64,000 bases of DNA, from contig NC_088209.1 of assembly GCF_037126465.1 (NCBI RefSeq), positions 24,495,146 to 24,559,145 on the forward strand, read 5' to 3'. This DNA comes from Ornithodoros turicata. Its lineage: Eukaryota; Arthropoda; Arachnida; Ixodida; Argasidae. The notes beneath the pieces are model-generated. The model was not told the origin of the DNA, ran no database searches, and worked only from the letters and a program-made list of their open reading frames with translations. The position numbers were made by a program, and so were the translations under genes. Shown piece after piece: positions 9,692 through 57,624 of this stretch (its first letter is position 1; every line of letters begins with the position of its first letter).

Positions 9692-10134
9692 CGGTCCACT
9701 CCAATGGCCGTAAGAGTGTAAACCGAAACGATCACCGATAGATGCTGCATGAACAACACCGCGGGACAGAAAAGTGGCTCAAACACCCAGCGTCCCAGCA
9801 TGAAATCCGTGTAGGTGAACGGAATAGAAAACACAGCCATGGTGATGTCCGAAAGCGCCAAGTTCACCAGAAATAGCCTCAACTCCCTCGACGACCTCTT
9901 GCCCAACACCAACACGACGACAACCGTTATGTTACCGCCCAACGCTAGGACGGCCGTCAAGGTGTACAGCACGATTAGGAAAGTTTGCACCTCGTTACCG
10001 AACACTTCCATCGGAGGATAATCTTCGTCGCTTATGTTCGTCCACGAAGTATTCCAGTGGTTCGCCCTGGCTTCGGCGAGTCGTGAATGATCCGCCGGCT
10101 GCGCATCGTCGGCGTGAGGAAAGTTGGGCAACAT
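9692..10134 (-). CDS. First coding exon of a class A (rhodopsin-like) peptide-type GPCR, copy A
   Basis: This exon encodes the first 147 residues plus two bases of Arg148 of a seven-transmembrane receptor, expected at the plasma membrane and signalling through G proteins. In order: an extracellular N-terminus (1-49) with sequons N28-T-S and N33-I-S; TM1 about 50-76 with the GN motif (N68); TM2 about 86-106 with the NLALSD signature (D96); an ECL1 tryptophan (W116); the conserved TM3 cysteine (C123); TM3 ending at VDR (147-148) of the DRY motif. Transcription runs leftward. The donor is G|GTGAGT with GT at 9691-9690, splitting Arg in phase 2, the usual DRY-motif intron position of this class. 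I chose the ATG at 10134 because it is the first in frame after a TAG at 10200-10198; the frame is open upstream only through TTG. The TM3 pattern CPxxLFMQxLSVxVSVYTLTAI recalls invertebrate kinin receptors, but the ligand is unknown. TM4-TM7 are not seen, so the gene is partial here. It is paralogous to the exon at 57212-57624. Confidence 0.9.
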
Positions 10135-11099
10135 GATGTCCCGAAGAAAATAAATTATACAGCAGTGCAAAAGCTGCGGCGGCGTCGGTTCGACCGTCTA
10201 GGCTAGTCGGCGTTCTCTCTTGCTTTCGACCACGGGCGTTCGCCGTGTGCTCCTCATATGTTCTCCTCATATGTGCTCTATCCTCTTTCCCTCTGCCACG
10301 GGGCGCGCTCGCCAGGTTGCCCGTGTGGCGGTAACGCAACAAGCTGCCGTGCCCTTAATTTCGCTTCGATGTGCAGGTAGGATAGAGTTCAACGTTAAAA
10401 GTAAGGGCGTCCTTTCCTGCGTTGCTACGAGAGTTTGCTGCTCGTCACCGAGCAGTTAAAGTGATTATTGCGTACTGTCGTTTCGGTCCTAGTGAGGGAG
10501 CGAGGAGGATACGTAAAAATGGTTACGCAGATATGTTGATCGATTACAGGGATTTGCGCCGGATTTTCAACTCCGGGGTGCGACGTCCCGTACCTGCCCC
10601 GCGATACCTTTTTTCGTGCTGTTTTGGCAGACATATTTTTTGGGGGTTGTTGGGACCGTTAGGGGGGTAGCGGTGATGGGAAAGCCCGTGTTTGGTCATA
10701 AAAAAATAGAGTCTGCAACTCTGTATTGATGGGTCGTTAGCTGTTGGCAAATGAGTCAGGCGCTACAAAAATGAAAGCCGGTGTGTACGGTATGGTGATG
10801 TACCCAAATGCACCGCACCATGCAGCACTGACATGACAAGACACGGCTAAACACGAGAGGGCAGTTTAAATATGACCGTCGTCGGAACAGCCAGACAGCG
10901 GCGGAATCGAAAGACGCACCTCTCGACTGCCGGTGGGGTGTGCTAACCACTACACGGTACGCTTGTTTTGTATTCGTCTGTATGTGTGTTTCAGCTTTAG
11001 AACGGTTACTTTCTAACATGTTCACACGAGGGCAGGGCTAAAATGCATGTTCAGTACCGTGTACATTTGTATGCATGTTTCCAGAAGCGAAAAAGAAGA
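10135..11099. other. Upstream region of GPCR copy A
   Basis: It should hold the 5' UTR and perhaps the promoter for the minus-strand GPCR exon. I found no clear TATA or initiator. The repeated words CTCATATGTTCTCCTCATAT at 10253-10273 are the only local pattern. Confidence 0.4.
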
Positions 11100-11300
11100 T
11101 GGCGGGGGGGGGGGGGGGTAGTATATGTTTATTAAGAAAAAAGAAAGGAAAGGTTAGCCGGGCAAAGAGCCGACTTGCTATTCCGAAAAAAAAACGGGGA
11201 AAAACAAAAAAGAAAAGGAAGGAAATAGAAAAGCAAAAAGGAAAAAAAGAGGGAAAACGAAAAAGAAACGGAAGGAAAAAGAAAAAAAGGGGCAATGGAA
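11100..11300 (+). repeat. Purine-rich dispersed repeat, second copy
   Basis: A run of G (11102-11118) is followed by TATATGTTTATTAAGAAAAA, GGTTAGCCGGGCAAAGAGCC, GACTTGCTATTCCG and an A/G tract to about 11295. Open frames across it are low-complexity only. Confidence 0.6.
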
Positions 11301-12129
11301 GATGGGTATGTTACGTCATCATTCGTCAGGGGTTCAAGTCGGGGTGTCAACCCAATGGTGCAGAAGTTCCACGTCTCAACAATACTAATCAATCAACGAT
11401 ACAATTCAACCCGAATTCACAATTTCTCTACCTGTCCTCTGCGATAGGCAGTCAAATTTTCAGAGCATTGTAGTGTTCATGTAAGTGACGGTCAAAATTT
11501 GAGTTGGCCAGCTCGTAGTGGAATGTGCATATATAGGTATACATGTACTGCACCAGTGCCTCATAAAACGTGCTCACGTAAAGTGTGACACCACAAACAG
11601 ACAACAACAGAGTTTTACTTGCACGTTGGTAGCGCATTTTAGAAAAGGGGATATTATCGATCGTGCTAGCACAGTAAACAATAGCACAGCACAGTAGCAA
11701 TTTGGAGAGGGGGGTATGTTTATTGAAAAAAAAAAAAGCGCCGCGCGGATAGGCTTTAACCTCCTCTCTCTTTTTCTTTTTTTTTTTTCAGCTGCAGCAA
11801 TAAACGCTAGGATTATCTACATCTTAGCTATGCAATAACGGCTACCTGCGGGCACGAGATCTCGTACAAACTCCTCTCAGCTTGGACGCAACTCCCTCTG
11901 ACGTGACCAGCAGAATGTCTTCGCATTGCTTTAGCCCAGAGGGAGTACGCGTAAGTTAAAATATTCAGTGGCGATTTAGCGGTAAATGCGAGAGAAATGC
12001 GTTAGCATTAAGCGCCTTTTCCGGTCTACACTTGACATCCGGGTATCCACTTCCGGTCTAACCTGACTTCCGGATGTGCTGTCTATACTTGACTTACCGT
12101 TTCGACACTTTCAACTACTATATGTAAGT

Positions 12130-12465
12130 CAATTTGATTAACCTTTATTAACCTCAGTTACTTTAAATTACCCTTCAATTACCTAAGGTAACCCAGGTTA
12201 CCCGAGGTAATCTTTAATTTAATTTAATTCCCTTTAATTACGTTTACGTGGTGTAATTACTCTCAATTTCCCTTTAATTGACATTAATTACCTTTAATGA
12301 TATGTAATTACCTCCGGCAACCCGCGGCCACTTTCGGTATTCCTTAATTTCATTTCATCATTCTCTTAATTACATATGTCTTACATTCAGTACTTTCAAA
12401 CACAACTTTCTTGCTTTAATTACCCTTAATTACCTCTAATTACCTTCAATTACTCTTACCTCTTA
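12130..12465. repeat. Degenerate TTAATTACC / ACCTTAATTA array
   Basis: About 330 bp of loosely repeated words such as TTAATTACC, TTTAATTACC, CCTTTATTAACC and GGTAACCCAGGTTACC. Unit length varies from about 8 to 14 bp, so it is a decayed minisatellite, not a simple microsatellite. It is AT-rich and without genes. Confidence 0.65.
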
Positions 12466-12582
12466 CTCTTACTTACCTGAAACCACTTCAGTTTCATACC
12501 ATTTACCTTCATTTACACTTACCCTCATATCTCCCCTTTACATCTTCACTTACACCTCTGCCTCGGTGAGGCTTCACCATCT

Positions 12583-12606
12583 CACACACGCACACACACA
12601 CACACA
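12583..12606. repeat. (AC)n microsatellite
   Basis: CACACACGCACACACACAC followed by ACATACATAC. Confidence 0.9.
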
Positions 12607-13317
12607 TACATACAGCTTTTTCCACTTTGACACTCCTAATGCTAACGCATAAAAGTAACATAAATGAAAGTATCCATTTCGGAAGGGAGTTGTTACTCGC
12701 GATGAGGCGATCCGTCAATTTTCCAGAGCGACGCTGCCTCGGTTCAAATGGGAAGCCTTCATGACTAGCATTGTTTCAGCGCTTGAACTTCGTTTGTAAC
12801 CCTGTCGGAACGAAGAAACCGTAGCTCCACGGCGGAAATGGCTGGTTTTTCTTTTTTCTCTTTTTGTCCTTTCTGCTTCCGTTGGATGTAGTAGCTGCGC
12901 GAAGACACCTCGTCGCATATTTTCTGCGGTCAGTTGTGGAAAGCAGACAAGAAAGCAGGGAAGAAGACATTGGTCATTACGCTATATTGGAGTATAGTGG
13001 AGGGGGAAGATGGAATGTTTCGAGTTTAAGGGCCATTTCTTGACGGCCGCATTTTAAACGGCACAGGCTGCGCAGGCAGCAACGGCAGCGCAGGCAGGCA
13101 GGCAGGCAGCAAACGGCGCAAGCTGCGCATTGCCGCTGACCTGCTCGCATGGAGTATAACGCGGTTCCTGTAGAGTTTCGTCCGGATAGGGAAACGGAAC
13201 TCCGGATATATGACGGCAGATTTGTATGGACTGACACCTGTCCCCATGTTTCTTGTCCGGATAGCGCGTGATCCGGATAAGCGAAGCACGCATAACCGGG
13301 GCTATTCCTTCGTGTTG

Positions 13318-13435
13318 TTACGTGTTTACTTTACTTTACTTTATTTTACTTTACTTTATTTTACTTTACTTTACTACTTTACGTTATTTTACTTTACTTT
13401 ACTACTTTACTTTATTTTACTAATTTACTAACTAA
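13318..13435. repeat. (TTTAC)n microsatellite
   Basis: Repeated TTTAC with TTTAT variants fills the interval. Confidence 0.9.
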
Positions 13436-14379
13436 CTACGTAGGAAGGGAGTTGCCTCAGGACAGAAGCCGCCGATATTTCAAACAGAGACTGTTCTTCT
13501 TCTGAACACCGTCCTCATCATTGGCATGGTATTTAAAGGGTTAGGTGTGACGTGTTTAAAGGTTCATGCGAATTGTGGGTCAACAGCCCGGAGGGAAGAA
13601 AGGTTCCGTACGGGTTTCTACGGCCGGAGTGAATGGCTGCTTTGTTAGAGTGTGGAGGGGATTATGTGAACGTAGTGATCTAACTACGTGTTTCTACGTG
13701 TTCTGTATTTCTACGTGTACTACTAACCACGTGTTTCTTTCCTTTGCTTCTTTTTTCGCGCCGCGCTGGAACTCTTCTTGAGCGTGCCCCAGAAAGCATG
13801 CCGTCACACTCATGGATCGGTAGCTACCGTACAGTAGCGACACCGCCCCCATAACGCTTAACAAAAACACACAAGTCGTACGTTCCACTTTTAGTCTAAT
13901 ACGCACACAGAAACAGTCACGTATGGTCAGCAGCTGTCGACTTTCCCGAGAGGCCAGGCAGCCCAGCCGTTAAACACGACAACGGCTTCCAGAAAGTGTT
14001 TCCCCGACAACGTGTAATGGCTTCTCTGGGCTCGAACAAGGTCGGTATAAGTTATGTGCGTTGTGGATACGTCACCGTGAGAGGAGGGCTATTTTTGGGT
14101 CGTGGTTGCATCCCTCGAAGACTTGCGATGGATTTTCTAAACTTATAGCGAAATTTATTAAAGATTATGAGCACAATTGTATGCACGCATTCCATTGCGT
14201 TGTGTTTACATGCAGATACTATTTGTCGTTGTTCCTGCGATGATGTGCGAACTGTACAACAACGTGTGTACGCGCAACATGTCTTTACTCAAATACATGA
14301 CTATGCACCTATGAGTGACTACACATGCGGGGATTATAATTATAATTGCAGTGGCACTCCAGCGATGGTAACATATAGG

Positions 14380-14570
14380 TGCCCAGGAATGGAATATTTC
14401 TATCAGAGTTGCGGAATGGCATCACCCATTCCCATTCCAATTCCATTATATTCCGAGGAATGAAGATTTGTGATAATTCCATTCCTTTCAATTCTTTAAT
14501 GAAAAGGTATGGCCAATTCCCACTCCCGGAATGGCTTGGCAACCCCATTCCATTCCTTTAATTCCACCAA
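14380..14570. repeat. ATTCC-rich degenerate tract
   Basis: Irregular repeats of GGAATGG, CCATTCC and AATTCC occur on both strands, so short palindromes form throughout. It is related in composition to the cores of the dispersed repeats at 14790 and 24088 but is not an ordered copy. Confidence 0.5.
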
Positions 14571-14748
14571 TAAAAGAATTAGGACCGGTAACCGTACTAG
14601 CTAGCCCAGCAGTGCGATAGAGGAGATTGACATTACCCAGCACGGAAGAAGCACAAAGACAAGGTTATTTCGCCCTCCTCATCGCCTCCTGGTATGGAGT
14701 AGCCGGCTTCCACGTTGGTAGTGCCAATTTTCTCAATTTTTTTCTTTT

Positions 14749-14785
14749 ACACTCACTCACTCACTCACTCACTCACTCACTCCTC
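14749..14785. repeat. (ACTC)n microsatellite
   Basis: Tandem CACTCACTCACT lies directly upstream of the ATTCC-core dispersed repeat. Confidence 0.95.
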
Positions 14786-14789
14786 TCCT

Positions 14790-15125
14790 CCTCCTCCTCC
14801 CCCTCTTCATTGGCATCATCATTACAGGAGTTTTCCACTAAAATATCCTGTGCAAGACATGTACGGTTGCGGGCCTCACACTAGTGAAGCCAAAATCTCC
14901 ATTTTATTTTTTCTTAAAACCAAACCAAACCATCGCCCTTGACCGTGTGGCACCCAGACCATTACATTCCAATTCCATTCCGCCTGCGAAAAAATGCCTA
15001 ATTCCATACCCATTCCATTCCCAGGACAGTTTCCGCCATTCCATTTCAATTCCATTCCGGGCTCTGGTAAATCTCGAATGATTCCACTATCATTCCAACC
15101 CCGGAGTGGCAGCTCAGCAACGCAG
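14790..15125 (+). repeat. Dispersed repeat with ATTCCAATTCCATTCC core, copy 1
   Basis: It begins in a CTCCTC run with CATTGGCATCATCATTACAG, then TTTTCCACTAAA, AAACCAAACCAAACCATCGC, CCTTGACCGTGT, several ATTCCAATTCCATTCC units and TTCCAACCCCGG. The reverse complement of 24088-24427 matches it end to end. An additional ATTCC-rich stretch upstream (14380-14570) contains GGAATGG words but is a different arrangement. Confidence 0.8.
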
Positions 15126-15329
15126 ATCTCTATTATACAGTATATGCGCCCTGGAAAGAATGACATCGGAAATCATCTTCCCCTATTGCAGACAAGTATC
15201 GCTTCTGTATGTCTGTAAGACACACAGTCTGCAAACTGTGGAGCAGCAAGAACAAGGGAATGCTGAGCCGATGCTGTGCCACAGCTTTACAGCGACGAGA
15301 ACGCTAATTCGATGGCACGACTCGACTAT

Positions 15330-15660
15330 GGAGAGGCACTGGGCAGACGACGTTTGTACACCGCCGCACAACGTAGTTGCCAAATGATCACCGAACTGCG
15401 ACATTCGAACACCACATGGCGGGTTGTCTTCACGCAGTCACAGGACGGGAAATAGCGTTCTCCCTTGAAGTAATGTTCCAGGTCCAAAGGTCGTCCCGCG
15501 TTGGTTGAATATCCTATGCGAAGCAACAGAATGTATCACGCAAGGGGGCGGGAAACCGAGGGCATATTGCCGCCTTCCACGCGATGCTTCCAACTTGTTG
15601 TTGTAGCCCAACTCGCGTTGGCATGACTGCGATGCAAAATCCAGTGATCCCATTTACAAC
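15330..15660 (-). pseudogene. Decayed retroelement fragment with a zinc-knuckle-like end
   Basis: On the minus strand two shifted frames read GYNNKLEASRGRRQYALGF and then RIGYSTNAGRPLDLEHYFKG, PSCDCVKTTRHVVFECRSS. The spacing of RIGxxxxxxxxxLxxF and CDC(x)4-5T(x)HVxFEC resembles the C-terminus of RNase H-bearing non-LTR elements, a different family from the CCHCG copies. At least one frameshift is present. Confidence 0.4.
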
Positions 15661-16864
15661 CTTAAAACCACTGCCAGGTGCGCTCAAAATAGGACAGTTC
15701 ATGGGCATCGCCGGCTTGGCATTTAGAAAGAGATACTGCAATGCGTTCTTCCAATAAGCGGGTGCAGGTCCATTATGGCCGAGTAAAATGTTTGAAAGGG
15801 GGATATTAAAATTTATCACAGAGGAAAAAAAAGGTCAGGAAAAAAGGAAAGGTCGATAATGGTCAGGCATGTAGTGCATGAGAAAGGCGGAAATGAGTAC
15901 AGCACGCGGCTTCCAAGAAGCGTTACTGTAGTCTTCCCTGATAAGGCTGACTATGCATCGTAGCCACACAATGAGACAGCATCTTCAACACAACTGGTGT
16001 GGCCATCTCACACCACGTTAGCGCCCAGGCGCTTATTCCTGCCTCCCGACCTCAACGAACACGTCATTGTTGTGCGGGATCGCATGCGTAAACCGTTGCA
16101 GGCCGCACATTTCTTGTCGAGAGCTGCTGCTACCGTCCAGTACACACAACAAGTTTTCTTTTATAAGTATACAAGTTTTCTTTTGCATGCTAACGATCGG
16201 GCACAATGCGATCGATAATGCGAGGTAAATTCTCCCCGCTTTGTGTCTAAAAGCTTAGTATGTATAAATAAACGTGGAAGGGCTCTGGAAAAAATAGGTC
16301 AGGAAGAGGAGAAATTATGATTACAAGCCCTGGGATACATATTCATTCGGGATGCGAATATGTATGGGCGCGGAAAGTACGGGTGCAGCGCGTAATCATG
16401 GCGCGCAAGAGAGCTTTCAATCACGCGAGTCAGAAAAGTCGCTTCCCTCAGCTGCCGGCCTGAGCATAGTGAGGGCCGCGTGCCGTCTTTTTCTTTCTTT
16501 CTTTTCGCCTTTCTGTTTGGAGCCGCGCGTCCCGCGCCTGAAGTAGAGCAGTCGACCGGTGGCCTTGATTCCGCGCCGTAGCATACGATTCTCGGCACCC
16601 AATAAGCGTGCTCGGATGAGCTGAGGTCACAACATCCTGGACGGGGCCACGAGAGCTCACTGCCGCTGCGCGCATTCTTGTAAACGAATTTCGTCAGGAA
16701 ACGTGCGCTTTCGAAAGGAAATATTTTCAGTGACACTATACACACTATTCGGGGTGCCTTCCATGCTATAGAATCAGGTGCTCAGTCGTTGTTGTGGTGT
16801 CGTTATTTACCGCGTGGTGATACGATGTACAAAGGAAGAGGGGTTTAAAAATTTACTGGTTTTC
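15661..16864. other. No gene seen
   Basis: Open frames here lack motifs. There is a T/C-rich stretch at 16489-16512. Confidence 0.5.
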
Positions 16865-17070
16865 CACCACCACCACCACTACTGGGCTATTTGCCTGCCT
16901 CATATGGCTGTATGCTGTACGGGATGATTGTATTCTGGGTCGACTTCACAAGGTAGTGTGCCGACATTTGCCTCGTCAGAGGAAAACCCAGGAAAAACAC
17001 CGGGAAAGCGCAGCCGGAGCCGCGCTCCGGATTAGAATCACGCCGTTGCTTTGAAGTGGCTGACAGGACA
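16865..17070 (-). repeat. tRNA-derived SINE
   Basis: In complement it reads GATTCTAATCCGGAGCGCGG (a mutated B box), TTTTTCCTGGGTTTTCCTC, AATGTCGGCACA and TGTGAAGTCGACCC. A CCACCACCACCACCAC run at 16864-16882 forms the 3' end, as in the copy at 23775. Confidence 0.7.
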
Positions 17071-18774
17071 CTGGGTTTCACAACTCTATATTTACCATAT
17101 CGTTTCCGTAAAGTGCGTAACTATTAGGAATTTTTCGATAGACGGTTCCGAAAACGTGAAAAGACCAATCGCGCTACTCCTTTCAACACGCTGACATAAC
17201 ATCACATTGTCTGATTTTAGATTTGACAGCATCCTTTACCGTATGGTTTTCGGAGCTGGCTTCTGAACAACGCTTCTAATCAGATACTGAGCTGCCCTTG
17301 ACCGGTAGTGCATATCTCACGCAACATGAGGCACCACATATCCAATCAATTGTACTCATAAATAACGTGATATCCCGTAAGAATCTCACCATGTGACGAC
17401 ACAGCATCATGGCTCAGGGTTGTTTGGATCCACATTGGTTTTATCCGGTGGATTATTTTGTATTTTATACACACAATTTTATCCGGATTTTTGTAGATAT
17501 TTAACGTCACACGGAAAACTCCCGGTTTATTTTCTTGTAGTGTTGGCTGTTTCCAAAAGCTCAGGTACGCGCAACATTTGCTTTTAACTTTTTTAACTAA
17601 CTTTTTTAACTAACTTTTTAACTTAGCTTTTTAACTTATAACTTTTCAGATTTAACTTTTTCCCGCTTTCTTCTACTTCTGACAGCTAGCCCAGGCGTGT
17701 AGGATCCACACCATTCAACCACGCGTGCATGGAACTCCACTTTTCGGAAAACAATAGAAACTGATACTATATTGCTGGGACAGGCAGTTCCGTAAACAGA
17801 AATTATGAGAGGTCACCCAAATCAAGAACAGCCTCTCTGTATTATTTTTAGTCCGTCCAACTCAAACTCCAAGAACAGCAAAGCACAAAAGCAAGCAGCA
17901 AGAGCATTTGTTTTTTTCTCTGTGTCACATTTCTAGCCTTGTATATATTCTCCAAAAATGTCCAAAAATATCCGGGTTTTATCCAAAAAAGCCCACAGGA
18001 GAGGATCTTTTTAAAAATATCCGGATTTTTTTTTTTCAGCCCTGTCATGGCTCTTGAAGGAACGGGGCAATGGCGACACTAACTCTCCGCTTGCATTTTA
18101 CAGCTATGCGCTCTATCGTACGAGGTTTCTCCATGTGGCGAAGCAGCTTATTTCAATACGATTTGGGTACACTCAAACACTTTGCGAACTCTGCCTTAGG
18201 TTGGAACTTCCATTTCCTGCGGAGTATTTTATTGACTCCGAGGCTTCCTTTCCACGAAGCAATTTATTTTCGTAGCGATGTCGAGTCTCGCTGCCTTTTC
18301 GAATAGGATGCATACGTCTTGCGCGTCTTTAGGCCTGAAAGGGAAGTCCTGATCGTTATGTTCTGTAAGTGGGATTTGCGAATCTCAGGCGGCCCCAAAG
18401 TGGTTTTCGAACCGCGGGTCCGTCCTCTAGACGGGTGCCTGGGGGGTCATCTATTCAAGGAATACGTCTTCTAGTGTTTGTAGTGTGTTTTGTTGTCACT
18501 TTATGATTATTTACCGTCATATTCCTCTTATTCGTAACGCAGTTAACCGGAAAACTCGTTATCCACTCTGCGTTGCCGGGAACGGTGCTACTATTAGGTT
18601 TCCATTCGGCTATCCAGAATTGGCTCTACGTATTCGGTCGTAAACTACTGGCAACACTTCTTCCAGAACCAGTCAGTCTTATAACCGCTTGTCCGGAAGC
18701 GTGCAAGGGTATCCAGCCCTTCGCGTTTGGTAGCGTTTGCGCTGTCCCCGGGGCTAACCTCACGGAAGTCGGGA
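17071..18774. other. No gene seen; ATCCGG-containing low-complexity stretches
   Basis: ATCCGG words near 17440-17490 and 17970-18030 occur in roughly opposite orientation, and a CTTTTTAACT repeat lies at 17585-17655. These may be an old inverted-repeat element, but the ends could not be fixed. Confidence 0.4.
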
Positions 18775-19046
18775 TCCGGAAAAATCGTCCCCGGAGAAAT
18801 CGTCCCCGGTAGGAACCTAGGTTAGAACCGGGTCCTAAGTTAGTTTTCGGAGGTTAGGTTAGTTTAAGCTTGCTTTTGACAGTTCACCATGCGGTTGAGG
18901 GAGGCCATCCACGGGGGGCACGCGCGCTACGCTACGCTATAACGCCGTTTGACGAAAACTACTTTTCTTGATACTTTTCTCGCGGGGACATTTTCTCCGG
19001 TGGACGTTTTTTCCGGGGACGATTTCTCCGGCGACGATTTTTTTCT
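18775..19046. repeat. Foldback element with GGGGACGATTTCTCCGG termini
   Basis: The left end GGAAAAATCGTCCCCGGAGA, followed by AATCGTCCCCGG, is complemented by CCGGGGACGATTTCTCCGGC at about 19013-19033 and ACGATTTTTTTC to 19046. The interior holds GGTTAGGTTAG-type and CGCGGGGACATTTTCTCCGG repeats. It is about 270 bp without coding potential. No clear target duplication was found. Confidence 0.55.
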
Positions 19047-19829
19047 ACACCCGAGGAAGCCGTCTATTTGCCTGTTTGTCCTGAGGTCAGCCTGCACAAG
19101 CTTGAGCGCGCAGACGGTGTCGATGGTTCCCGAGAAGTGAAAGAGGCGTGCCATATTTTAATTTACTTATCAACTTATCAACTCCAGGCTTCACACGTCC
19201 ATTTGATAGACAGACGTTTCGCGCAAACAGACAGACGGTCACCATTTTGCAACTTGGGGAGGGGGGGGGGGGGCTTCTAATGCTTACGCATTGAAAGTCT
19301 ATGTGTAAACGGCGATATCCATCACAAAACATTACCAGCATGCAGGACTGTCGTCTGGTCCGTGTGTCTGTCCATCGTGCATTTCTCCATATAGAGCAGG
19401 GGGTAGGTTACTCTATAGTTAGATAGTTAATAAATTAGGAAGATAAAGTAAACCTTGGAGCTTTCAGCAACCCACCATGGGTGCTACCTGCTCCATTGCA
19501 AAAACTATATAGCTATTACACATTCGGAATCAAAATCCTCACAGCAATCAAAACAAATCACAGCGGGATCCCTCACATTCTCACGGGCACCCAATTAATA
19601 GAGCGCACTTAGTGTTCACGACACAGTTGTGAGACCAGTCTCACTCAAGAAGGCTACCAGCAGACGGATTGCCTTTCGTTGATTGCGCGGAGTATCCCAA
19701 GGACCCAATAAATGAGTCAGCTAGCTATAGACTCAGGGAAATGTTATCAGCAGCTAGCCTACACCAGCTTGCTCGCGTTTCGTTTCTTTGTTCCAAAGCA
19801 GCTCATTCGATCGGAGTTGACGTTTACTG

Positions 19830-20667: not shown

Positions 20668-20669
20668 TG

Positions 20670-20850: not shown

Positions 20851-20881
20851 TCATTCAGTGCTTTCACACATCAAGCGTCAT

Positions 20882-20960
20882 GGAACAGCTGGTCGCACCA
20901 GTGCGACCGATATGTTTCCTTTTTTTTTTTTTCCTACTTCTATTCTATTCTGGAATTGTG
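20882..20960 (+). repeat. Dispersed repeat with GGTCGCxCCAGTGCGACC palindrome, copy 2
   Basis: It reads CAGCTGGTCGCACCAGTGCG, then ACCGATATGTTTCC, a T-rich run and CTACTTCTATTCTATTCTGG. It is homologous to 8715-8795 on the other strand. Confidence 0.7.
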
Positions 20961-47832: not shown

Positions 47833-47836
47833 AGCT

Positions 47837-48209
47837 AGGGAGTGACTTTTTCGGGTTAAATGCCTTCCTCAGATGCGGGGTAAAAATCGGGCGCTGTTGT
47901 GAAATCTGTAATTCGGGGAGAAATCGAGCGATAATTGTGCCTTCGGGTGTTATTGGGTGTTTTTGTTTCTCTTCTTGTCTATTAGGTCATTTCCTAATGT
48001 TTTTTGCCGACGCACATGGGTGTATTGTATTGTATAGTACATGTGTTACACTTTGCCACCTTTGTTCGTCTTCAGTGGAAACGTCACTTGAGGATTTCAT
48101 AGTGACTGGAATTCGGGGAGAAATCGGGTTTAACCCGAAGTGGTCGGAGGTCAGTTCGGGGGGGAATAACCAGGTGAGATCGATTTTAACCCGAAAAAGT
48201 CACTCTCTA
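47837..48209. mobile_element. hAT-like MITE with perfect 8-bp target duplication
   Basis: TCATAGCT is present at 47829-47836 and 48210-48217. The termini read AGGGAGTGACTTTTTCGGGT on the left and (complemented) TAGAGAGTGACTTTTTCGGG on the right, each followed by TTAAA. Internal repeats GAATTCGGGGAGAAATCG occur twice (about 47910 and 48110). The 8-bp duplication and AGGG-type end fit the hAT superfamily. Length is 373 bp with no ORF. Confidence 0.8.
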
Positions 48210-48384
48210 TCATAGCTCGTTCTTTGTGTCATTTCGTGTCAAAAGCTCGTTTGAGAGCGCTATTATTGCAGCGCGCTTTGTCACGTGGTGTTTTTATTAT
48301 CGTATGTGCATTGCGCTGGTGGAAAGAGAGCTCCGCGGAGGGTAGCATATCGTAAACAACTGGAATAAGGTTAAGGCGGTCCCA

Positions 48385-48645
48385 CTTGTTTGTGGTAGCC
48401 AAGGTCGTGCTGAAGACTGGGAGGTAGTGGGTTCGAATCCTACAACCGGCTGTGCTGTCTGAGGTTTTCCCTGGGTTTTCCGAAGACTTTCCAGACGAAT
48501 GTCGACCAAGTTCTCCCTGAAGTCGCCCTACGACGCATATTAACCCCCCCCCCCTGTCCCTCACTCCTTCCTGTTGTCCTCTCTCCATCTGACCAAGCCT
48601 GTACGCCGCTCATAACCACAGTTGCTTCGCAGCGCTAACACGGGC
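48385..48645 (+). repeat. tRNA-derived SINE, near full length
   Basis: GGTTCGAATCCTACAACCGG (B box) is followed by GAGGTTTTCCCTGGGTTTTC, ACTTTCCAGACGAATGTCG and CTGAAGTCGCCC. The tail reads CTCTCTCCATCTGACC, CGCCGCTCATAACCACAGTT and GCTTCGCAGCGCTAACACGG. The same family is at 58965 and 55610. Confidence 0.8.
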
Positions 48646-49077
48646 ACACAGAAATTGGAGTCAGCTACATTCTAATGCGTCCTACAACTTTCCAAATGTG
48701 GCTTGGGCTCTTCAAACGACATTTAATATGGTAGTTACTATGCTGAACTTATTAGTATACCTAGTACGATACCTCTGCTTGTGCAAGACGTCTGTTTACC
48801 ATATTCGGTTGGTTTCATCCTAGCATAACGCACCAAATGTATATTAATAAACAAAAAACTTCAATGAAGTACCGCACTTCCTGCATGGCCCAAAGAAAAA
48901 GAAGCCGAATTTGAGCGCCTACTTGCAGCTTCTGTTGAAAATGTGCATGCCACTATTTTAGTTGACAGCAGTATAGTAGTGTCCTTGTTATCATTCTTTT
49001 GTTCTTTGCTTTCGACATATACTACGAGAGGGTAGGGCAGGAGAGCCGTGCATGAACTAGCGAGAGCGTACCAGGTA

Positions 49078-49325
49078 CACTCTTAAAAATGAACTTCACC
49101 GCACAGCACGCTCCTAGCCAACCATCGTCCAGAATGATATCGTTATCTGCCCTGATTTGTTGAAAACTGGAGGCGTACGCCATTTTTGTGACACTTATGC
49201 TGTTCATAATTGTCACAAAAAGGCGTACGCCTCCCGTTTTCAACAAATCAGGGCAGATAACGATATCATTCGAGATGATGTTTGGCTACGAGTGTGCTAT
49301 GCGGTGAAGTTCATTTCTAAGAGTG
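49078..49325. mobile_element. Foldback MITE, uninterrupted copy of the CACTCTTAAAAATGAACTTC family
   Basis: This 248-bp element is almost entirely one palindrome: left arm 49078-49200 and right arm 49203-49325, with the turn at TATGCTGTTCATAA. Termini match the copy at 20161. The target duplication is TA (49076-49077 and 49326-49327), as for Tc1/mariner insertions. Confidence 0.85.
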
Positions 49326-49329
49326 TACA

Positions 49330-51966
49330 GTGCTGCTTATCTGTTCAGGATCCTGTTACTATTCGTGAGGTCTAAGATCTCTTTCGCTGTGTACAGCTAT
49401 CAGTATTTGTGTCGACTGAACAGTTGAGCTTTTGTTTCGTATGCAACTTTGCGTGCGTGCGCGTTGCTTTGCTTTGCGAACTTTCTGTTCGTAGCGTATA
49501 GCTGTTTAGTATTTTGGTTCCTGTTTCATAGCGGCGTATAGGCATGTCTTTTTTTGCGGGGTTTTCCCTCTGTTTTCCTTTTTCTACTATCGCAAATGGC
49601 GCTTTTGAGTGTCGTAGTCGGAAGACGTGATTAATCGTACTAAATGGACTGCAATTTAGACTTTCTGCATACTCACAGCTGAGGCTGCCTTTGTCGACGA
49701 TATGTATCTTAACGTTTCGTCGAACGTTTTACGAGCCACGAAGCATCAGCATGAGCTTCCCTGCACGCCCTCTTCGGCTGGAGGATGTAAGAGTCGCTTG
49801 ATGGAATTTTTACCCACGTTGGTCATCATCATCAGTCACGAAGGGGTGGCTACAGTGAAAAACCCACATATATATACTCGGTACGCAGTTGGACGCATGC
49901 CAAGCCGAATAGAGCCGCGGTTTATTCTTTCCCCAAATATCTGGATTGAACGGTGTGTGGTTATAAATTTTCCAGGAACCTTATCCGAAATATATAGCAT
50001 AGTCCCGGCGGAGTATAGGAACGTGAGTGTAGTATATCCCTGAATCAAGTAAAGGTTGCAAACGGAAATGAAAAAAAGTATGTATGTAAAAAGACAACTT
50101 TATTTAGATTATGATGATTGAGATGATTGGATAATGTAAAAATGTAGCACGAAAAGCGTGTAATCGCATCTATCGCAACGCCGCGAAATTCATTTGTCCC
50201 CAACAGAGGTTTATCGTGGCGTCCGATTATACGAAACACGAGTTTCGGCTACTTTGGTTTCGTCATTCATTCTGTGGAGCCGGTGGAAGGATAATCCATC
50301 AAACGCGCCATCGATCATTAGGAGTCTATTTGACTATTACGACTACAGAGGGTCAAGTTCTACCGTGCACAGTGAGCTTTGCAGATCTCCTTTTAGATAA
50401 GCTCGAAGCCCCACTGAAAGGAATGCACTCCGTTTAGGTTTTCATCGTCAGCGTTCCCCGTTAGTGGTCAGTAGGTAATTCGTGTCATCTATAAAACGAA
50501 TAATAGCAAAACTGATATGAGGTGCACTATTATCTGTCCCGCGATAGCTACTGACGCTGGAAAGAATTGAACACAATGTTACTATAAACGGAATTGAGGA
50601 CATAATTTGAAATAAAAAGTGAGCAGCAATAGAGAATGGAACTAACTAATACGTCGACAAACAACGCGAAAACAGAAGAGAAAAGTTTAAAAGAGTTAAC
50701 AGAGTTTCAGCACATGATTGTTTACTAAAGTTTCCAATGCAGAAATGGTGACAACAAGCATACTATGCAAAGGAAACAACACCATATGGAAACACAACCG
50801 CCTCTGTAGCAGTAATGAGGAAATTAACGTTAATTAACCTGTGCTACCTGTGATAATATTTTCTCTCTCTCTTGTTAAAGACGCCCGTGTGCAGCAATGA
50901 CAAAAATACAATGCCGAGCGGCAGACATTTCATACGCGATGTTCTCATAACGGCTCCTTCCCGAACCCTTGACGTTTGACATTACCACCTTCTGCATGCG
51001 CCATTTCTCTCAGCCAAATAGCGACTGTTGTTGGGAGAAAGCGTCACGTTTCGGTGTCTCTTCTTGCGTGCAACGATTCACCGCACAAAGAAAAGCGTGC
51101 GTTCTCGTCAAATAGAACACACCCACGAACGAAATGCGCATGCCACGGTCCATTAGCTTACGGAACTGCACTTCCGAATCCTTTGATCCACAGGGGCATG
51201 CAAGCTGGACGACTATCGCTCGGCTGACTGGTGATACGAAGAAAATTGCTCTTCCGTGTTAGCATACACACTTCGTGCTTTGTTCCGGGGCAAGTGTGTG
51301 TCTGCGAGCATTTGAACGATGCCGGCTCTGTGATTGAGAAAAGGAATTGAAATCCTTTTTTTTTCTCTCTCTCTTTCTCGCTCTCTTTTGTTCTGCGTTA
51401 ATGATGGCGCACGTTGTGATTGTCAAACTTTCGGGAACTGTGTGTTTTCTGCCATAGCAATACCCGTGGCACGCGAGCACGAAAAATTACATTCAGTGCG
51501 TAATGAGTTCAGTCATAATGTCATTCCTGCCGTGCTATACGGCAGGGGAATGCATAAGGAATACATATGAGGAATGTACATAAATAAATAAATTATACGT
51601 ACAAGCTCTCGCTTCGTGGTCCACGATTCATCAGGTACAGAAAGAGGTAATGAAGCGTGGTACACCGCGCGAAAGCTTGTACATATTAAGCACATACTGT
51701 AATAAGGAAGCACAGGCAGATCCGTTTATTAGAGAAACACGTGAGCAAACATGTGATGGTGAGGATGATAAATGCTAATTATGAAGGCAAGTTATCAACA
51801 ATGGGGATATATGGCAACATATACATCATCCCCGCTTTATGACCTCTCCCGATGGCGTCCACATGTAACTCTTTTTCGTTAATATGACATTATGTTTATA
51901 TGACAGTGACCGGTATTTTCTGCACAACCAGAGGCTAACACGTGTACTTTACCCTAGAGAGCATTC
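49330..51966. other. No gene seen; possible relative of the 6371 hairpin near 51590
   Basis: The stretch 51590-51690 shares TCATCAGGTACAGAAAG and GCGAAAGCTTGTAC with the foldback repeat at 6371. The rest shows short open frames only. Confidence 0.4.
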
Positions 51967-52866
51967 CTTTTCCGCGCCTTAGTCGTCGTTCAGTGTCCGC
52001 GATTGGGCTGACCGTGTCACGTGGTTTCTCCTCCTAAGAACGCGTCGTCCATGTTGAGTGCCCTCCATCCAAAACCGGTTTCCTGGGTTGCGATCTGACT
52101 GCGCGCTGTCCTCCGGCGGAGAAGGGGGAGATTGGCGTCCCGTTGCTAGGCGACGCAGCCGCGCCGGACCCAAGATGGCGGTCTCGCTCGTCGGCGTGGC
52201 TCAGTGTCGCTACTCTACTCCCTATTTGGTGACTTTACTTTACACTCGTTAAAGCAGGTCCCCCAAGGTCGCCATTTGCCCATGTATTTGTTCCTATCCC
52301 GATGCGTGCAATGCCGGAGGCCGCCCTTAGATACCCCATTGTTACCAGACGTTGGCTTGCGTTTGATGGTAGCGCGCTAAAGATCCAGTTGAAGCACAAT
52401 CCAAGCCAGGCCAAGTCGCCTAAGGAGAAATGGACGACTGCGCCTGCGGCGCCTGGTACGACAGGTACGCTATGTGATGCACGCAGCCGTGCACTATAGA
52501 TCCTTCCGATCGCTCAACACGTTTAAAAACGGGACCAAAAAGTGAAACACGACACAGAAAGTTGTTATACGCGTTTTATTTGGACATATATAAAGACTAG
52601 ATTCATTCGCAGAAACAACAAAAACATTTTGCCGCTAAACTTGTGCTAAACTAAACCGGTGCGGCTGCATCGCCTAGCAATGGGACGCCAATCTTCCCCT
52701 TCTTCGCCAGACAACAGCGCCCAGTCGAGCCAGCTCGCAATCGAGGAAACCGGGTTTTGTATGGAGGAGACTCAACATGGACGGCGCGATCTTGGAAAGA
52801 GAAACCACGTGACACGACCGGCCCAATCGCGGACACCGAACGGCGGCTCCGGCGCGGAAAAGGAAC
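51967..52866. mobile_element. Large inverted repeat with about 200-bp arms
   Basis: The left arm, about 51967-52172, and the right arm, about 52655-52866, are reverse complements at roughly 80 percent by eye. Shared words include CCTTTTCCGCGCC at both outer ends, GTGTCCGCGATTGGG, GAGAAACCACGTGACACG and CGCCTAGCAA. The spacer 52173-52654 is unique and includes CAAGATGGCGG. No target duplication is visible, because the right end abuts the 3' tail of the retroelement at 52864-53765. It may be a DNA element with long TIRs or an inverted duplication of a promoter-like segment. Confidence 0.6.
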
Positions 52867-53765
52867 AACAAGAACAACAACTTTATTTTGGGAGGAAGAG
52901 TGGGGAAGTTCATCGCCAGAGGCGATGCTCTACCCCATTGCTGGTGGGGATGTGGGGAATAAAATAATGAGTCCCTTCACAATAACGATCAAAGTCCGAT
53001 GGTGTCCTGAAGTGTCAAATGAGCTTTGAGCGCAGATCGTTGCTGAGCTGGATTGGGCCAGAGACCAAGCACTTTCGATAGGGAGAAGGGGCGAGAGTCC
53101 AGCTGACGAAGAGACTCGGAGAGTGCGGTTCGGGAAGGTTGGTAGAGGGGGCAATGAAGAAAAATGTGCTCCAGATCCTCAAGAGCACCACAATGGCAGC
53201 AGGCGGGAGAGTCAGCTTGTCTCAAGCGGTAACGCCACTGAGCTGTAAAGGCCACATCGAGGCGCATTCGGTGGATTAATGCAGCATCTTGACGAGAGGT
53301 GTTTCGTGGCATGCGGAAAGCGAGCGTTGGATCAACTCTGCTCAACATAGATGGGGGGTGAATGTCGGTTGTCCATTGGTGGGAAGCCAGGGGTGTCACG
53401 AGGCGTCGCAGAATGGAACGGCGGTCTCCTCTCAGCAGAGCAATACTGGTCCGTGTCCGATACGAGAGTGCTACTTCTGCGGCGCTGTCGACCTGCTCGT
53501 TCCCCAGGACACGACAATGGGCTGGAACCCACTGGAGAACTAGCCTGTGGCCTGCTGCGTAGACAGTGTTGTAAGCCATTAACACATCTGTGACTAGGGT
53601 TGCGGATGGGCCTCGTATGCCGGAAATTGCAATAGCTTGAAGTGCAAATTTGGAGTCTGTGAAGACTGCCCATTCCCGCGGAGTAAAATCAGCGATGTGT
53701 TGTAGGAAGAAAAGGATGGTATAGGAAAAGGAATGTGATACTCTGTACCCCTATTTAGTGACTCT
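52864..53765 (-). pseudogene. 3' end of an RNase H-bearing non-LTR retrotransposon (best-preserved copy)
   Basis: Read on the minus strand from about 53745, the frame gives the middle of an RNase H domain (AVFTDSKFALQAI with the catalytic Asp of TDS). It continues through the WVPAHCRVLGNEQVDSAAE motif, the C-terminal RNase H block HxGxxGNExAD with His-Cys in place of the usual His-x-Gly. Next come a conserved linker (RVDPTLAFRMPRNTSRQDAA) and a zinc-knuckle-like CCHCGALEDLEHIFLHCP segment, ending in TIGL near 52990. A 3' UTR follows with AATAAAG and a GTT-rich tail at about 52864-52890. Reverse transcriptase and endonuclease are absent, so the copy is 5'-truncated as is typical of target-primed reverse transcription. 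RNase H plus a terminal CCHC points to the I/LOA/R1-like group; the exact clade is not resolved. Related copies lie at 30387, 41175, 39845, 21541, 19830 and 7511. Confidence 0.85.
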
Positions 53766-54726
53766 AATGATGCTTACAAGTGCAGTGCTCTTGGTCATAT
53801 GGTCATAGTGACCTGAGCTAGCTGAGCTGCAGTCATACGGCATTCAGGAACAGCGGTGGCTGTCATAATGAAGAAGCAGATATGCGTCAGATTCAAGGAG
53901 CGATCATGGACCCACCAGGATCTCATACACGCGAACTTTTTCTAAAAATAAAAAAAATAAAGTGTTACGCGTTATTTGAAAATGTCTCATTATTTGTATT
54001 CTCATACCAGCTTGCGTCATTTTCTACTTTTTGAAGCATACGTAAAGAGTATGGTACGACTCGTAACACGTGTTCGTTAATGGGACAATTCGCTTTATGG
54101 CCAAAATCCGCAGGAACGACCGCGATCATATTAACGAGTTTCGACTAAATTTAGAAAGCTTCAGTGTCATTATTTTGCGTGTTCTATACAGCCATCTTGT
54201 ACTTTACTTACCCTCAACAAACGATTCCCTATTCAACTGCAAACTGGTCTTAGAGCTCGTCGATCGCAAATCTTTTTTTATTGGCAAGGTGCACCTGACA
54301 TATGATATGATAATTGATACAAAGAACTGTGTGTCCGTATAATGTTCTGCTTCTAGTTCATTAACCCAATAACACAAGCGTAATCGCCTTACAACATTGT
54401 TTCGCAGAACTTCATTTAGTGGCTTCGCTAACGACTGCCTAATGTCTCACGGGAATTGTTGGCGTCAGTTGGTTTATGGCTATAGCTCGCACGATTTGTT
54501 CGCTAAATGTAACTGACTGAAATAATGTCCCAGTTCCGACAAGCATGATACTTGGGGCGAAATGTTCCTCGATTGGGTTGCTAATAGCGTGACTTGCTGT
54601 ACGATGTTTGCATATATATAGACCAACAGCTGTATGCCTCCCCGCTCTGTCAGCTAGACCAATGATACGACCAGAGTAGATAGACGTAATGGATGTATAG
54701 AACGGAAACAAATGGAACTCGCAATC
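53766..54726. other. No gene seen
   Basis: AT-rich, with a 90-codon plus frame at 54070-54342 that matches no family known to me. Confidence 0.5.
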
Positions 54727-54729
54727 TTA

Positions 54730-55503
54730 CACCGCCGTCACACGGCAAATTGAATGTCATTCTCAGCGAATGACGTTCGCACTGAATGACATTCGTTCCG
54801 TGCCACACGGTGAAACCAAATGGCATTACATGCGACTGACATCGGGGAACTCATTCGCTTTTCCCTTTCGCATCGACTGCGTAGTGCGTACCCTTGGAGT
54901 AGAGAGGTGGCAAAAAAAAATAAACAAAGATGAACTGTTTGAAGAAACTAAACACGACTGAAAAGTTGTAATCCAGTATTTTATCACGAATTTGATAACT
55001 TTTGAAACGAAGGACGGAAGGCTTAACAGTGTTTCTCTTAGAACCACCCTCGTTCCCAGTCGCCACGTTGCTAATGCGTGGTACAGACAGGCTTCTTACT
55101 TGACAGTAGTTTGTTCTCTTCTGTGTCCGTGTTTTTCCCGCGTAATACTCTACTGCAAGTATGTTTCAACACGCCAATCGTCGCACCCTGTTGATGTTCT
55201 TACCTGTCTTTGATTGTGACGCTTAGTCAACTGAGCGTCGTCGTCAACGCAGCGAAATAATCTAAATAATCTTGCAAAATAATCTAGTGCTTCGCTAGTT
55301 TCGAGAAATAGAAATAAAACTATAACTAATGTACCCGTATAATGTTTCATACGTTCGGCCCTGGTGTCTTAATCACCGACAGTGACATCGTTTGCGAATG
55401 ACATTCTGTTTCTTCGTGTAGCTTGATGCAGTACAGACGAATGAAATTCGGCGCGAATGTCCTTCGCTGGGAATGCCATTCAATTTGCCGTGTGACGGTG
55501 GTG
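54730..55503. mobile_element. Second PIF/Harbinger-like non-autonomous DNA element
   Basis: Termini CACCGCCGTCACACGGCAAA and CACCACCGTCACACGGCAAA (right end, complemented) continue with TTGAATG(T/G)CATTC. They are flanked by TTA at 54727-54729 and 55504-55506. The palindromic subterminal word GAATG(A)CATTC repeats near both ends. The 774-bp length and lack of transposase indicate a deletion derivative. The core of the termini (GTCA-x-ACGG-x-CA) is reminiscent of the element at 32602. Confidence 0.75.
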
Positions 55504-55594
55504 TTACAGTTTTGTATGGCTTACTTAGCGACGCAGCGACAAAAAGAGAGTCAAGTCGTCTGCGGCATGCATTACAACACATCCCTCTACCCCC

Positions 55595-55700
55595 CTACAA
55601 ACCCCACCTCTCCCCCACTCCATCCTGAAGTCCTTTCTCTCTATCTTTATACTCGCCTGTACGCCGCTCATAACTACCGTTGCTTCGCGGCGCTAACACA
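55595..55700 (+). repeat. SINE tail, plus orientation, fused tail to tail with the next SINE
   Basis: It consists of the 3' third of the family: GTACGCCGCTCATAACTACC and GTTGCTTCGCGGCGCTAACA. It ends exactly where an opposite-strand copy begins. Confidence 0.65.
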
Positions 55701-55890
55701 GAGGAGGGCAGCGGGAAAGAGTGGGCGACAAGGGGCTAGTGTGCTTCCTGGGCCGAATTCATGGGGAACTGTGCCGACATTCGTCTTGAATGTCTGCCGG
55801 GAAAACGCCAGGGAAAACCTCAGACAGCAGAGCTGTTGTGGGAATCGAACCCACCACCTCCCAGTCTTCAGTACTACCTTGACTACCACC
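55701..55890 (-). repeat. tRNA-derived SINE, minus orientation
   Basis: In complement: GGTGGGTTCGATTCCCACAA (B box), CTGCTGTCTGAGGTTTTCCC, CAAGACGAATGTCGGCACAG and TTCCCGCTGCCCTCC. It starts at its 3' end directly against the plus-strand tail at 55700; its terminal GCGGCGCTAA part is missing. Confidence 0.75.
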
Positions 55891-55897
55891 AACGATT

Positions 55898-55978
55898 GGA
55901 TGTTTTCCCCCTTCTCTCGGAGTGGCTTGGGACTCACATCTCGATTTTTTTTTCTTTTACAAATCAATCAATCAATCC
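55898..55978 (+). repeat. Short retroposon 3' end with (AATC)n tail
   Basis: CTCGGAGTGGCTTGGGACTC, ACATCTCGATTTTTTTTTC and AAATCAATCAATCAATCC. It belongs to the family at 4285 and 22005. Confidence 0.55.
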
Positions 55979-57052
55979 TTCTCGACCATGCCGCTGCCTG
56001 AGCAGTAATCACTCGCAAAGTCACGCTTTTTAATAGATAACCACCATTCAGGCATCGCGACCTGTCCCGTCCTCCAGGTAACAATACAAGACAATACACA
56101 TGCCTTTCAATAGTCTGGACTTCGGCTTGGCTGCGACAAGACACATACGTTAATCCTGGACAGGCTGCGAGTTCTTGTTCAGGAGCTCGTATTCACCTAG
56201 TCGTGGTCTGTCTAGTTCCATCGAAATGTTAGGGGAAGCCACTCCGTGTGACTAGACTTCAACTTTAATGCCAAAGTAGTAATAAATGTAATAATTTTGC
56301 TGACTTGATAGAGTCACCTCGTTTGGTTGACATCCAACATTGATGCCAAAACATATCCACACGGAAGACATATCTAATCAGTGAACAATGCAATGGGGTT
56401 AGGTGTAGATGTCACGAAATTTAAATTACGGTAATCTGATCATTCGGTCTCGTGCATCCGTACATAATAGAAGACGGCTTACATGAAATAAAATATAGAG
56501 TACCGTTAAGGAACATGAGCTTGCCTTTTGTTAACTCATGTAATAATTGCCAACATGAAGACACCTGCTAAATCTAACCAAGCGTGGGGAATACGTACGT
56601 AGTATGTAATAATACGGATTCATTTTCGAAGCCGCGCTCGCATTGTTTTATGCCCTGTCTTGTGGGGCTTTTGGGTTACAGCAGCTTCGGAACCACATCC
56701 CCTTTTGCAGCTTCGAAAGTATTGAAATGTGCTCGTTTCGGGAAAGACATCGCTTCGATCCGAATTTAGAACACACAATTTCATATTAGATTCCAAACTC
56801 GAATCGAATATACAATTTAACCGCATAGATATTCAAAAATTCAGAATATATACGCACATCCCTATTAGCTATAGATACTTGAGAACACTCACTTACAGCT
56901 TCTTTTTATTTTCCCTGCTTTTTTATATTACTCCTACTAAACTATACTACTTTTTCATCCCACGTGCAATCAACCGCTTCAAAACGTCTCTGGTTACAAA
57001 TGAAGTTCCCGGGAAAATTTAAAAAAAAACTAATCAGACAAACCACAGCGTG
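55979..57052. other. Upstream region of GPCR copy B
   Basis: It contains ATTCGAAT-rich satellite-like words at 56745-56850. No upstream exon could be identified. Confidence 0.4.
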
Positions 57053-57058
57053 TATAAA
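57053..57058 (+). promoter_or_regulatory. Possible TATA box upstream of GPCR copy B
   Basis: The hexamer TATAAA lies about 155 bp before the ATG of the plus-strand GPCR exon, which would leave a 5' UTR of roughly 120 bases if it were used. I see no initiator consensus at the expected place, and a 5' UTR intron cannot be excluded. This is a positional guess only. Confidence 0.2.
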
Positions 57059-57211
57059 GTACACGCGCCATAATTTGTCGGAGGAACGAAACCAGAGAGA
57101 AAGAGAAGTGACATCTCCGAGTTTCGAACGCGCCGGCGCCCGGTGCCAGAAAGTGCGTCGCGACCCAGCCTGTACGGAGCATCGTCTCAACAGCTTCGCG
57201 CGCACGGCGGT

Positions 57212-57624
57212 ATGGGCTTCACTGAACGCGTGCACCTTACCCAGGGGACCACCGACAACAACGTGTCTCTACCCAGCAACATATCCAACACGGACTACCC
57301 ACCCATGTTGGCGCTCGGTGTCGAACTGCAGGTTTTTCTCATCGCCCTCTACAGTTTCACCGCTCTCTTGGCTCTCGCCGGAAACATTATGGTGATTGTC
57401 GTGTTACTTCTGGGCCGAAGATCCTCCCGGGAACTGCGCCTGTTTCTTGTGAATTTGGCCCTCTCGGATATCACGATGGCTCTGTTTTCCATTCCCTTCA
57501 CGTACACGGATTTTATGCTCGGCCGCTGGATATTCGAGCCGTTTTTCTGTCCCGTCGTGCTTTTTATGCAGCACCTCTCCGTGATTGTGTCGGTGTACAC
57601 ACTCACTGCAATAGGAGTAGACAG
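57212..57624 (+). CDS. First coding exon of a class A (rhodopsin-like) peptide-type GPCR, copy B
   Basis: This exon encodes residues 1-137 plus two bases of Arg138 of a receptor paralogous to copy A. In order: an extracellular N-terminus (1-39) with sequons N17-V-S and N23-I-S; TM1 about 40-66 with GN (N58); TM2 about 76-96 with NLALSD (D86); W106 in ECL1; C113 at the start of TM3; VDR at 136-138. The donor is AG|GTGAGT with GT at 57625-57626, again phase 2 in the DRY Arg codon. The ATG at 57212 is the first in frame after a TAA at 57071-57073. From the shared DYPPM segment to VDR the two exons align over 111 residues without gaps with 19 differences (about 83 percent identity by eye), while their N-termini before DYPPM differ. 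Third-position differences are many, so this is a duplication of some age and not an allele or assembly copy. Transcription runs rightward; no TM4-TM7 exon is recognisable before 64000. The family is a class A peptide receptor, with kinin- or NPY-like TM3 features and unknown ligand. Confidence 0.9.

Follow-up and report, generated by a model that had tools for sequence, protein, structure and literature searches.

Two outward-facing first exons of peptide-receptor genes in Ornithodoros turicata and the receptor family to which they appear to belong

We analysed a window of 64,000 nucleotides of O. turicata DNA (assembly GCF_037126465.1, contig NC_088209.1, positions 24,495,146 to 24,559,145). 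It contains two receptor exons on opposite strands, each running from an ATG to the last coding base ahead of a GTGAGT splice donor, and both facing outward. The features are as follows.

9686..9691, minus strand: 5' splice donor GTGAGT adjoining the minus exon (read directly)
9692..10134, minus strand: first coding exon, encoding the N-terminus and transmembrane helices 1–3 (TM1-TM3) of a class A peptide GPCR, P0012/P0001 (ORF, Pfam)
10135..57211, no strand assigned: interval between the start codons, partly repeats (tblastn, within-window repeat scan)
57212..57624, plus strand: first coding exon, encoding the N-terminus and TM1-TM3 of P0102, 364 aa (ORF, Pfam, protein match)
57625..57630, plus strand: 5' splice donor GTGAGT adjoining the plus exon (read directly)

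The exons were found exactly where the initial annotation had placed them, at 10134-9692 (minus) and 57212-57624 (plus), both pointing outward. The donor lies in phase 2 in each, so that the break falls within the R codon of DRY. Class A GPCRs are marked by GN in TM1, LxxxD in TM2, a Cys opening TM3 and the D-R of DRY; all these residues can be read in both exons. Matches to Pfam 7tm_1 over TM1-TM3 exceeded the cut-off of 30.5 bits for the minus exon (62.4 bits, 6e-17) and for the plus exon (69.3 bits, 4.6e-19), bearing out the earlier assignment to first coding exons of neuropeptide-type class A receptors. The minus exon has 148 open codons and encodes two N-glycosylation sequons. The plus exon is 100% identical to residues 1-138 of P0102, ‘RYamide receptor-like [Ornithodoros turicata]’, a database protein model that runs on through TM4-TM7 and thereby gives the plus gene seven helices. 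The two are thus confirmed as intact first coding exons that cover TM1-TM3 of neuropeptide-type class A GPCRs.

A tblastn search with 223 proteins (E <= 0.01) matched these two exons only in the whole window; the interval yielded no further exon belonging to the family. Repeats occupy at least 7,093 of the 47,077 nt between the exons, a lower bound that counts just those recurring inside the window. A scan of 10 ORFs, eight of them in the interval, revealed an RNase H/zf-RVT fragment (52992-53750), both matches being under the Pfam cut-off. The claim that the interval is ‘filled with transposons’ is confirmed only in part. Between 6 kb surrounding the minus exon and 7 kb surrounding the plus exon, blastn reported three stretches of similarity: one spans exon and donor (10001-9686 versus 57315-57630, 74%), one covers 84 nt elsewhere in the flanks (73%, E 5.6e-6) and one is 17 nt long. 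With matches limited to these three, homology does not extend outward past the exons.

In a gapless alignment anchored at the C-terminal end, the two exons differ at 19/111 residues, exactly the count given in the initial annotation. BLASTP scored the pair at 197 bits, with 95/117 residues identical. Differences fall on 20, 10 and 61 of the 111 first, second and third codon positions, respectively, and different codons are used at 56 of the 92 identical residues. Estimates of dN are ∼0.11–0.14; those of dS are either at saturation (1.78 by LWL85) or undefined (NG86). No gene conversion tract was found between the exons, the longest identical run being 12 nt.

O. turicata has at least four copies of such receptors, namely the minus exon (P0012), P0102, P0104 and P0107, and possibly five. 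P0148 is an O. turicata record with TM4-TM7 only; it, P0104 and P0107 match P0102 at 72–76% over the shared part. The candidates scored were the ∼8,000 sharing most words, and copy numbers are accordingly lower bounds. The database names of P0102, P0104, P0107 and P0148 are ‘RYamide receptor-like’ and ‘prolactin-releasing peptide receptor-like’.

That the exon pair is an assembly or haplotype artefact can be practically dismissed, given that 61/111 third positions differ and that homology stops at the exon edges; the earlier view of the two as paralogs of old divergence holds. The same annotation had taken them for an established inverted duplication, of which the age and the opposite strands stand; the sister pairing gains no support. 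If a single local event had produced both exons, they should be mutually closest relatives. Their opposite strands and their spacing of 47 kb are consistent with such an event, and an AU test does not reject the pair (p-AU 0.131; cost 5.75 log-likelihood units). Against it, the free tree of 107 columns and 19 rows, itself poorly resolved, does not hold the pair; a 26-row tree joins the plus exon to hard-tick copies (88/94), a placement on which the 19-row tree does not decide; and the window pair, with 19/107 differences, lies within the range of O. turicata copies generally (13–20/107). For the pair, and likewise for the four O. turicata rows together, sister status is neither supported nor rejected by the tree test, and we regard a local inverted duplication as rather doubtful.

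It must also be asked whether the minus exon is stranded, a recently dead or partial duplicate no longer joined to TM4-TM7, and whether both exons encode RYamide (luqin-type) receptors, the name under which the plus copy is filed in the database. With the tails of seven relatives as queries, nothing convincing by way of TM4-TM7 exons was found in the 64-kb window, and no full-length record contains the minus exon among the best 120 of 261 matches; because ∼8,000 candidates were scored and these best matches taken, that absence is weak evidence. The minus exon is moreover the most changed TM1-TM3 copy in O. turicata, differing from Ixodes P0003 at 16/107 positions, where the remaining copies, three in number, each differ at 10. 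Against stranding, its 148 codons are open, its donor is retained, and P0012 keeps all 32 columns found invariant across 31 other rows (30 from the family plus P0102; family row P0122, which needs a gap, was left out), while P0107, a full-length copy, breaks one of 33. Together with synonymous sites near saturation and the dN given above, this indicates that P0012 has been under constraint at the protein level. In Ixodes persulcatus, TM1-TM3 (P0003) and TM4-TM7 (P0195) likewise lie in separate records; faulty annotation may accordingly account for an absent join. A stranded minus exon thus seems improbable to us. Still less probable, indeed very unlikely, is the RYamide reading. It draws on the database names of P0102 and P0104, and on an Apolygus lucorum orphan listed as A92 in a published table, whose best Swiss-Prot match is Drosophila RYa-R and which may correspond to family row P0151. 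Against it, O. turicata P0208 falls among rows named RYamide receptor from moth, katydid, aphid, hard tick and horseshoe crab, in a clade separate from the P0102 family at 100/100, and is 34% identical to P0102. The 42-row tree splits 35 family rows from seven RYamide-type rows at 100/100; the names in the latter clade are database labels, one of the seven being tachykinin receptor 99D. Judged by sequence, the RYamide label of P0102 looks wrong.

The family tree, built from 42 selected rows that leave aside tachykinin, orexin, NPY and NPFF receptors, places P0102 alongside GPCR A44 and rows from Limulus, spiders and further arthropods, and unites it with insect, crustacean and myriapod rows in a 29-row arthropod clade (100/99). 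This runs counter to the proposal of an expanded ligand system specific to chelicerates; the accompanying idea of several receptor copies in chelicerates fared better, with at least five Limulus records, two spider clades and at least four O. turicata copies. By these trees the receptor family is at least arthropod-wide and distinct from RYamide receptors. The ligand system cannot be read from the sequence. Mollusc, Lingula, hemichordate and shark rows fall on the arthropod side of a tree whose sole outgroup is RYamide-type, and in a quick 69-row tree the long-branch rows Lineus P0207 and Argiope P0222 fall between the RYamide-type rows and the family. The rows on the arthropod side would be in keeping with a peptide-receptor family of ancient, bilaterian origin, to which no ligand has been assigned and whose members go by several database names (RYamide, NPY5, GPR83, QRFP-like, substance-P receptor). 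Such a family would have expanded separately among horseshoe crabs, among spiders, among mites and among ticks, with four or five copies in O. turicata, one lacking a complete record; further variety would come from an alternative C-terminal tail (P0102, Ixodes-like P0103) and, among hard ticks, from TM1-TM3 exons that have become homogenised. We put this forward tentatively, at somewhat less than an even chance, because outgroups of a single kind underlie its bilaterian reach.

For the window itself, we consider it highly probable that the two exons are the 5' coding exons of two distinct, functional peptide-GPCR genes, members of a set that numbers at least four in O. turicata. Each would supply an N-terminus with N-glycosylation sequons and helices 1–3, and splicing inside DRY would join it to TM4-TM7 exons outside the window; these would lie at least 9,691 nt left of the minus exon and at least 6,376 nt right of the plus exon. 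The splice is represented in the database protein model for the plus gene and predicted for the minus gene. Among related rows, 64/99, P0012 included, end exactly after [GA]x[DE]R, which is what a phase-2 GTGAGT donor at that point would make a mechanical ORF do. The likeliest TM4-TM7 partner of the minus exon is P0148, a pairing towards which we lean slightly. Among the TM4-TM7 halves, P0148 has changed least (17/185 from P0103, versus 23, 33 and 45), whereas among the TM1-TM3 copies P0012 has changed most, which speaks against joining the two. By homology, the receptors would bind a secreted neuropeptide and signal via heterotrimeric G proteins. Their opposite orientation may be a by-product of growth of the gene set; a promoter shared over 47 kb is no part of the explanation.

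Chelicerate neuropeptide genes were reportedly treated by Veenstra in 2016. Multiplied neuropeptide-receptor sets have been published for Ixodes scapularis (PMC4748124), and a search by title or abstract found no literature on this receptor family in ticks among the entries listed. The O. turicata exons are new members of an already known kind of receptor. Neuropeptide receptors of ticks are candidate control targets, and in the present family, for which the sources consulted give no ligand, database entries bear names taken from other systems, so that RYamide peptides applied to P0102 would probably test the wrong ligand. Some tick records also keep the TM1-TM3 and TM4-TM7 halves apart. Corrected labels and rejoined halves would make a clean ligand hunt possible.

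Compared with known systems, the nearest solved structures by sequence profile are vertebrate tachykinin, orexin, NPFF, PrRP and NPY2 receptors (195–183 bits), none of which stands out, and orthology is not claimed. Placement of the family by this ranking was rejected: RYamide-named P0208 also ranks tachykinin receptors first, so the ranking does not place the family. The RYamide-named receptors P0208 (O. turicata), P0205 (Amblyomma) and P0202 (Manduca), which served as outgroup, are likewise class A peptide GPCRs; they differ from P0102 in their identity of 34–35% and their separate clade (100/100). Nilaparvata lugens ‘GPCR A44’ (P0141) and Diaphorina citri ‘neuropeptide receptor’ (P0137), at 52–53% identity to P0102, belong to the same family as its insect branch, neither having a named ligand in the sources consulted. 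Within O. turicata, P0102 begins with the plus exon, and the minus exon is a further TM1-TM3 copy without a full-length record among the matches listed. Hard-tick copies in the same family are Ixodes P0003 and P0140, the read-archive record P0103, which resembles Ixodes, Haemaphysalis P0105, Dermacentor P0142 and P0147, and Rhipicephalus P0005 and P0009. Grouping of P0102 with P0103 (99/97) was not accepted as orthology, because a C-tail of one kind is common to both and because a tree from TM4-TM7 by itself joins P0102 to P0107 (82/88). Rhipicephalus sanguineus has two TM1-TM3 records with 107 identical residues and different N-termini, a likeness that the O. turicata copies do not show. Five tick rows form one clade in the 42-row tree (100/100), in which P0103 and P0105 stand with the O. 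turicata rows, and the quick 69-row tree, which includes P0012 as exon only, recovers an 11-row tick clade at 97.

The two exons read from ATG to splice donor at the positions and on the strands assigned by the initial annotation:

10134-9692, minus strand: receptor first coding exon, ATG start, GTGAGT donor at end (minus exon, held in protein record P0012 as a mechanical ORF)
57212-57624, plus strand: receptor first coding exon, ATG start, GTGAGT donor at end (plus exon, start of record P0102)

Coding capacity, donor and phase are directly visible in both: the donor splits the DRY motif within its arginine codon, and Pfam 7tm_1 is matched from position 1 to 82 and 83 of 260. Exactly 19 of 111 residues differ in an ungapped alignment, as had been counted by eye, and differences at first, second and third codon positions number 20, 10 and 61 of 111, bearing out the remark that third positions often differ. 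dN is ∼0.11–0.14, while dS is near or past saturation. Similarity of the two loci is confined to exon and donor, apart from one 84-nt and one 17-nt match in the flanks; a search for a long identical tract between the exons gave a longest run of 12 nt. Given the near-saturated third positions and dS, the low dN and the shortness of identical runs, the pair is an old divergence under protein-level constraint, an established duplication as proposed. Artefactual origin is ruled out by this divergence and by the DNA match stopping at exon and donor.

The further proposal of an inverted duplication of one pair stands as far as opposite strands and true paralogy go, but sister status is neither favoured nor rejected. 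Over 107 columns, copies in this soft tick (Argasidae) are 13–20 residues apart from one another, against 19 for the window pair; a tree over these columns does not resolve the O. turicata copies. Constraint tests, whose power is low, gave p-AU 0.131 with the window pair together and 0.229 with the four O. turicata rows together.

Two features lie in the interval:

52992-53750, minus strand: LINE-like RNase H/zf-RVT fragment (24.5 and 18.4 bits; cut-offs 25.8 and 27.5)
44882-44926, plus strand: type I hammerhead ribozyme (Rfam RF00163, 35.8 bits; gathering 34)

The fragment came from one of 10 ORFs scanned, eight of them in the interval, and falls below the Pfam cut-offs; two related copies occur at 30401-30900 and 41184-41827. 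The ribozyme belongs to a hairpin made by an inverted repeat (98%) and lies within one of its two 109-nt arms (44671-44779/44848-44956). Repeats recurring inside the window cover only 7,093 of the 47,077 nt between the exons. That the interval is 'filled with transposons' is plausible and confirmed only in part.

Profile search and trees group the exons into one arthropod clade of a peptide-receptor family (100/99, 29 rows; P0012 placed by its exon only, in the quick tree). The clade spans ticks, mites, spiders, a scorpion, horseshoe crabs, sea spiders, myriapods, a crab and insects, including GPCR A44 of Nilaparvata. Molluscs, Lingula, hemichordates and a shark fall on the family's side of the outgroup, a reach that is provisional because RYamide-type rows were the sole outgroup. 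By homology, the products would be membrane receptors for a secreted peptide and probably couple to G proteins; the sources seen here name no ligand. Horseshoe crab (Limulus P0106, P0109, P0110, P0114, P0127; quick and 42-row trees) and oribatid mite (Oppia P0123, P0125, P0129; quick tree) copies appear to have multiplied separately. P0156 of Sarcoptes scabiei, a family-profile match, has 'nuclear pore complex protein Nup85' as its database name, which probably reflects misnaming or an erroneous fusion.

The database calls P0102 'RYamide receptor-like [Ornithodoros turicata]'. Seven RYamide-type rows, including the tick's own P0208, split from the family at 100/100, and 11 stand apart in the quick tree (support 95); 'RYamide' thus appears to be a label by resemblance, and 'RYamide receptor-like' a probable mislabel. 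Labels on family rows conflict (RYamide, NPY5, GPR83, QRFP-like, substance-P receptor). Ranking against solved structures decides nothing, because tachykinin, orexin, NPFF, PrRP and NPY2 receptors score nearly equally with the family profile (195–183 bits) and tachykinin receptors also rank first for P0208.

The plus gene has a full-length model: P0102 (364 residues) reaches through TM7, its residues 1–138 identical to the plus exon. The minus exon has 148 open codons and an intact donor, breaks none of the 32 columns that 31 other rows keep unchanged (P0122, which needed a gap, having been removed beforehand) and carries two N-glycosylation sequons. Within the 107-residue core only F4 and A84 are absent from other rows; for comparison, P0104 has three residues unseen elsewhere and P0107 breaks one invariant column. 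The minus gene would be complete, its remaining part lying beyond the window. At least four TM1–TM3 copies (P0012, P0102, P0104, P0107) and at least four TM4–TM7 copies (P0102, P0104, P0107, P0148) occur in O. turicata; there may be more, since each protein search scored only ∼8,000 candidates. These records and P0208 all list a longest contig of equal length, 44,835,408 bp, and so very probably lie on one contig. P0148 starts with methionine immediately ahead of YYAIMYPLS, a model therefore lacking TM1–TM3, and P0012 and P0148 are most simply read as the two halves of a single gene. Their unequal rates somewhat disfavour this pairing: among first halves P0012 has changed most, and among second halves P0148 has changed least. 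In Ixodes persulcatus the halves likewise occupy separate records (P0003, P0195) on equally long contigs, as would fit a long first intron overlooked by gene finders.

The C-tail NFRADVMQLI is shared by P0102 and P0103 (Ixodes by likeness); P0104, P0107, P0148, P0140, P0142, P0105 and P0147 have the type DL(R/K)QL...CC. P0103 and P0140 are identical over TM4–TM7 but differ in tail, which suggests alternative last exons common to soft and hard ticks. In Rhipicephalus sanguineus, P0005 and P0009 have unlike N-termini and no differences in the 107-residue TM1–TM3 core, while hard-tick TM4–TM7 halves are of two kinds (P0105/P0142 and P0147/P0159), so that gene conversion of the first exon is possible there.

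Three points are of use: the RYamide name is probably wrong, the minus copy has no complete record among the candidates scored, and a family to which these sources assign no ligand is widely spread. Multiplied neuropeptide receptors are in print for Ixodes scapularis, in a passage that does not name RYamide receptors (PMC4748124). The exons described here are additional members within this known type of multiplied tick neuropeptide receptors.
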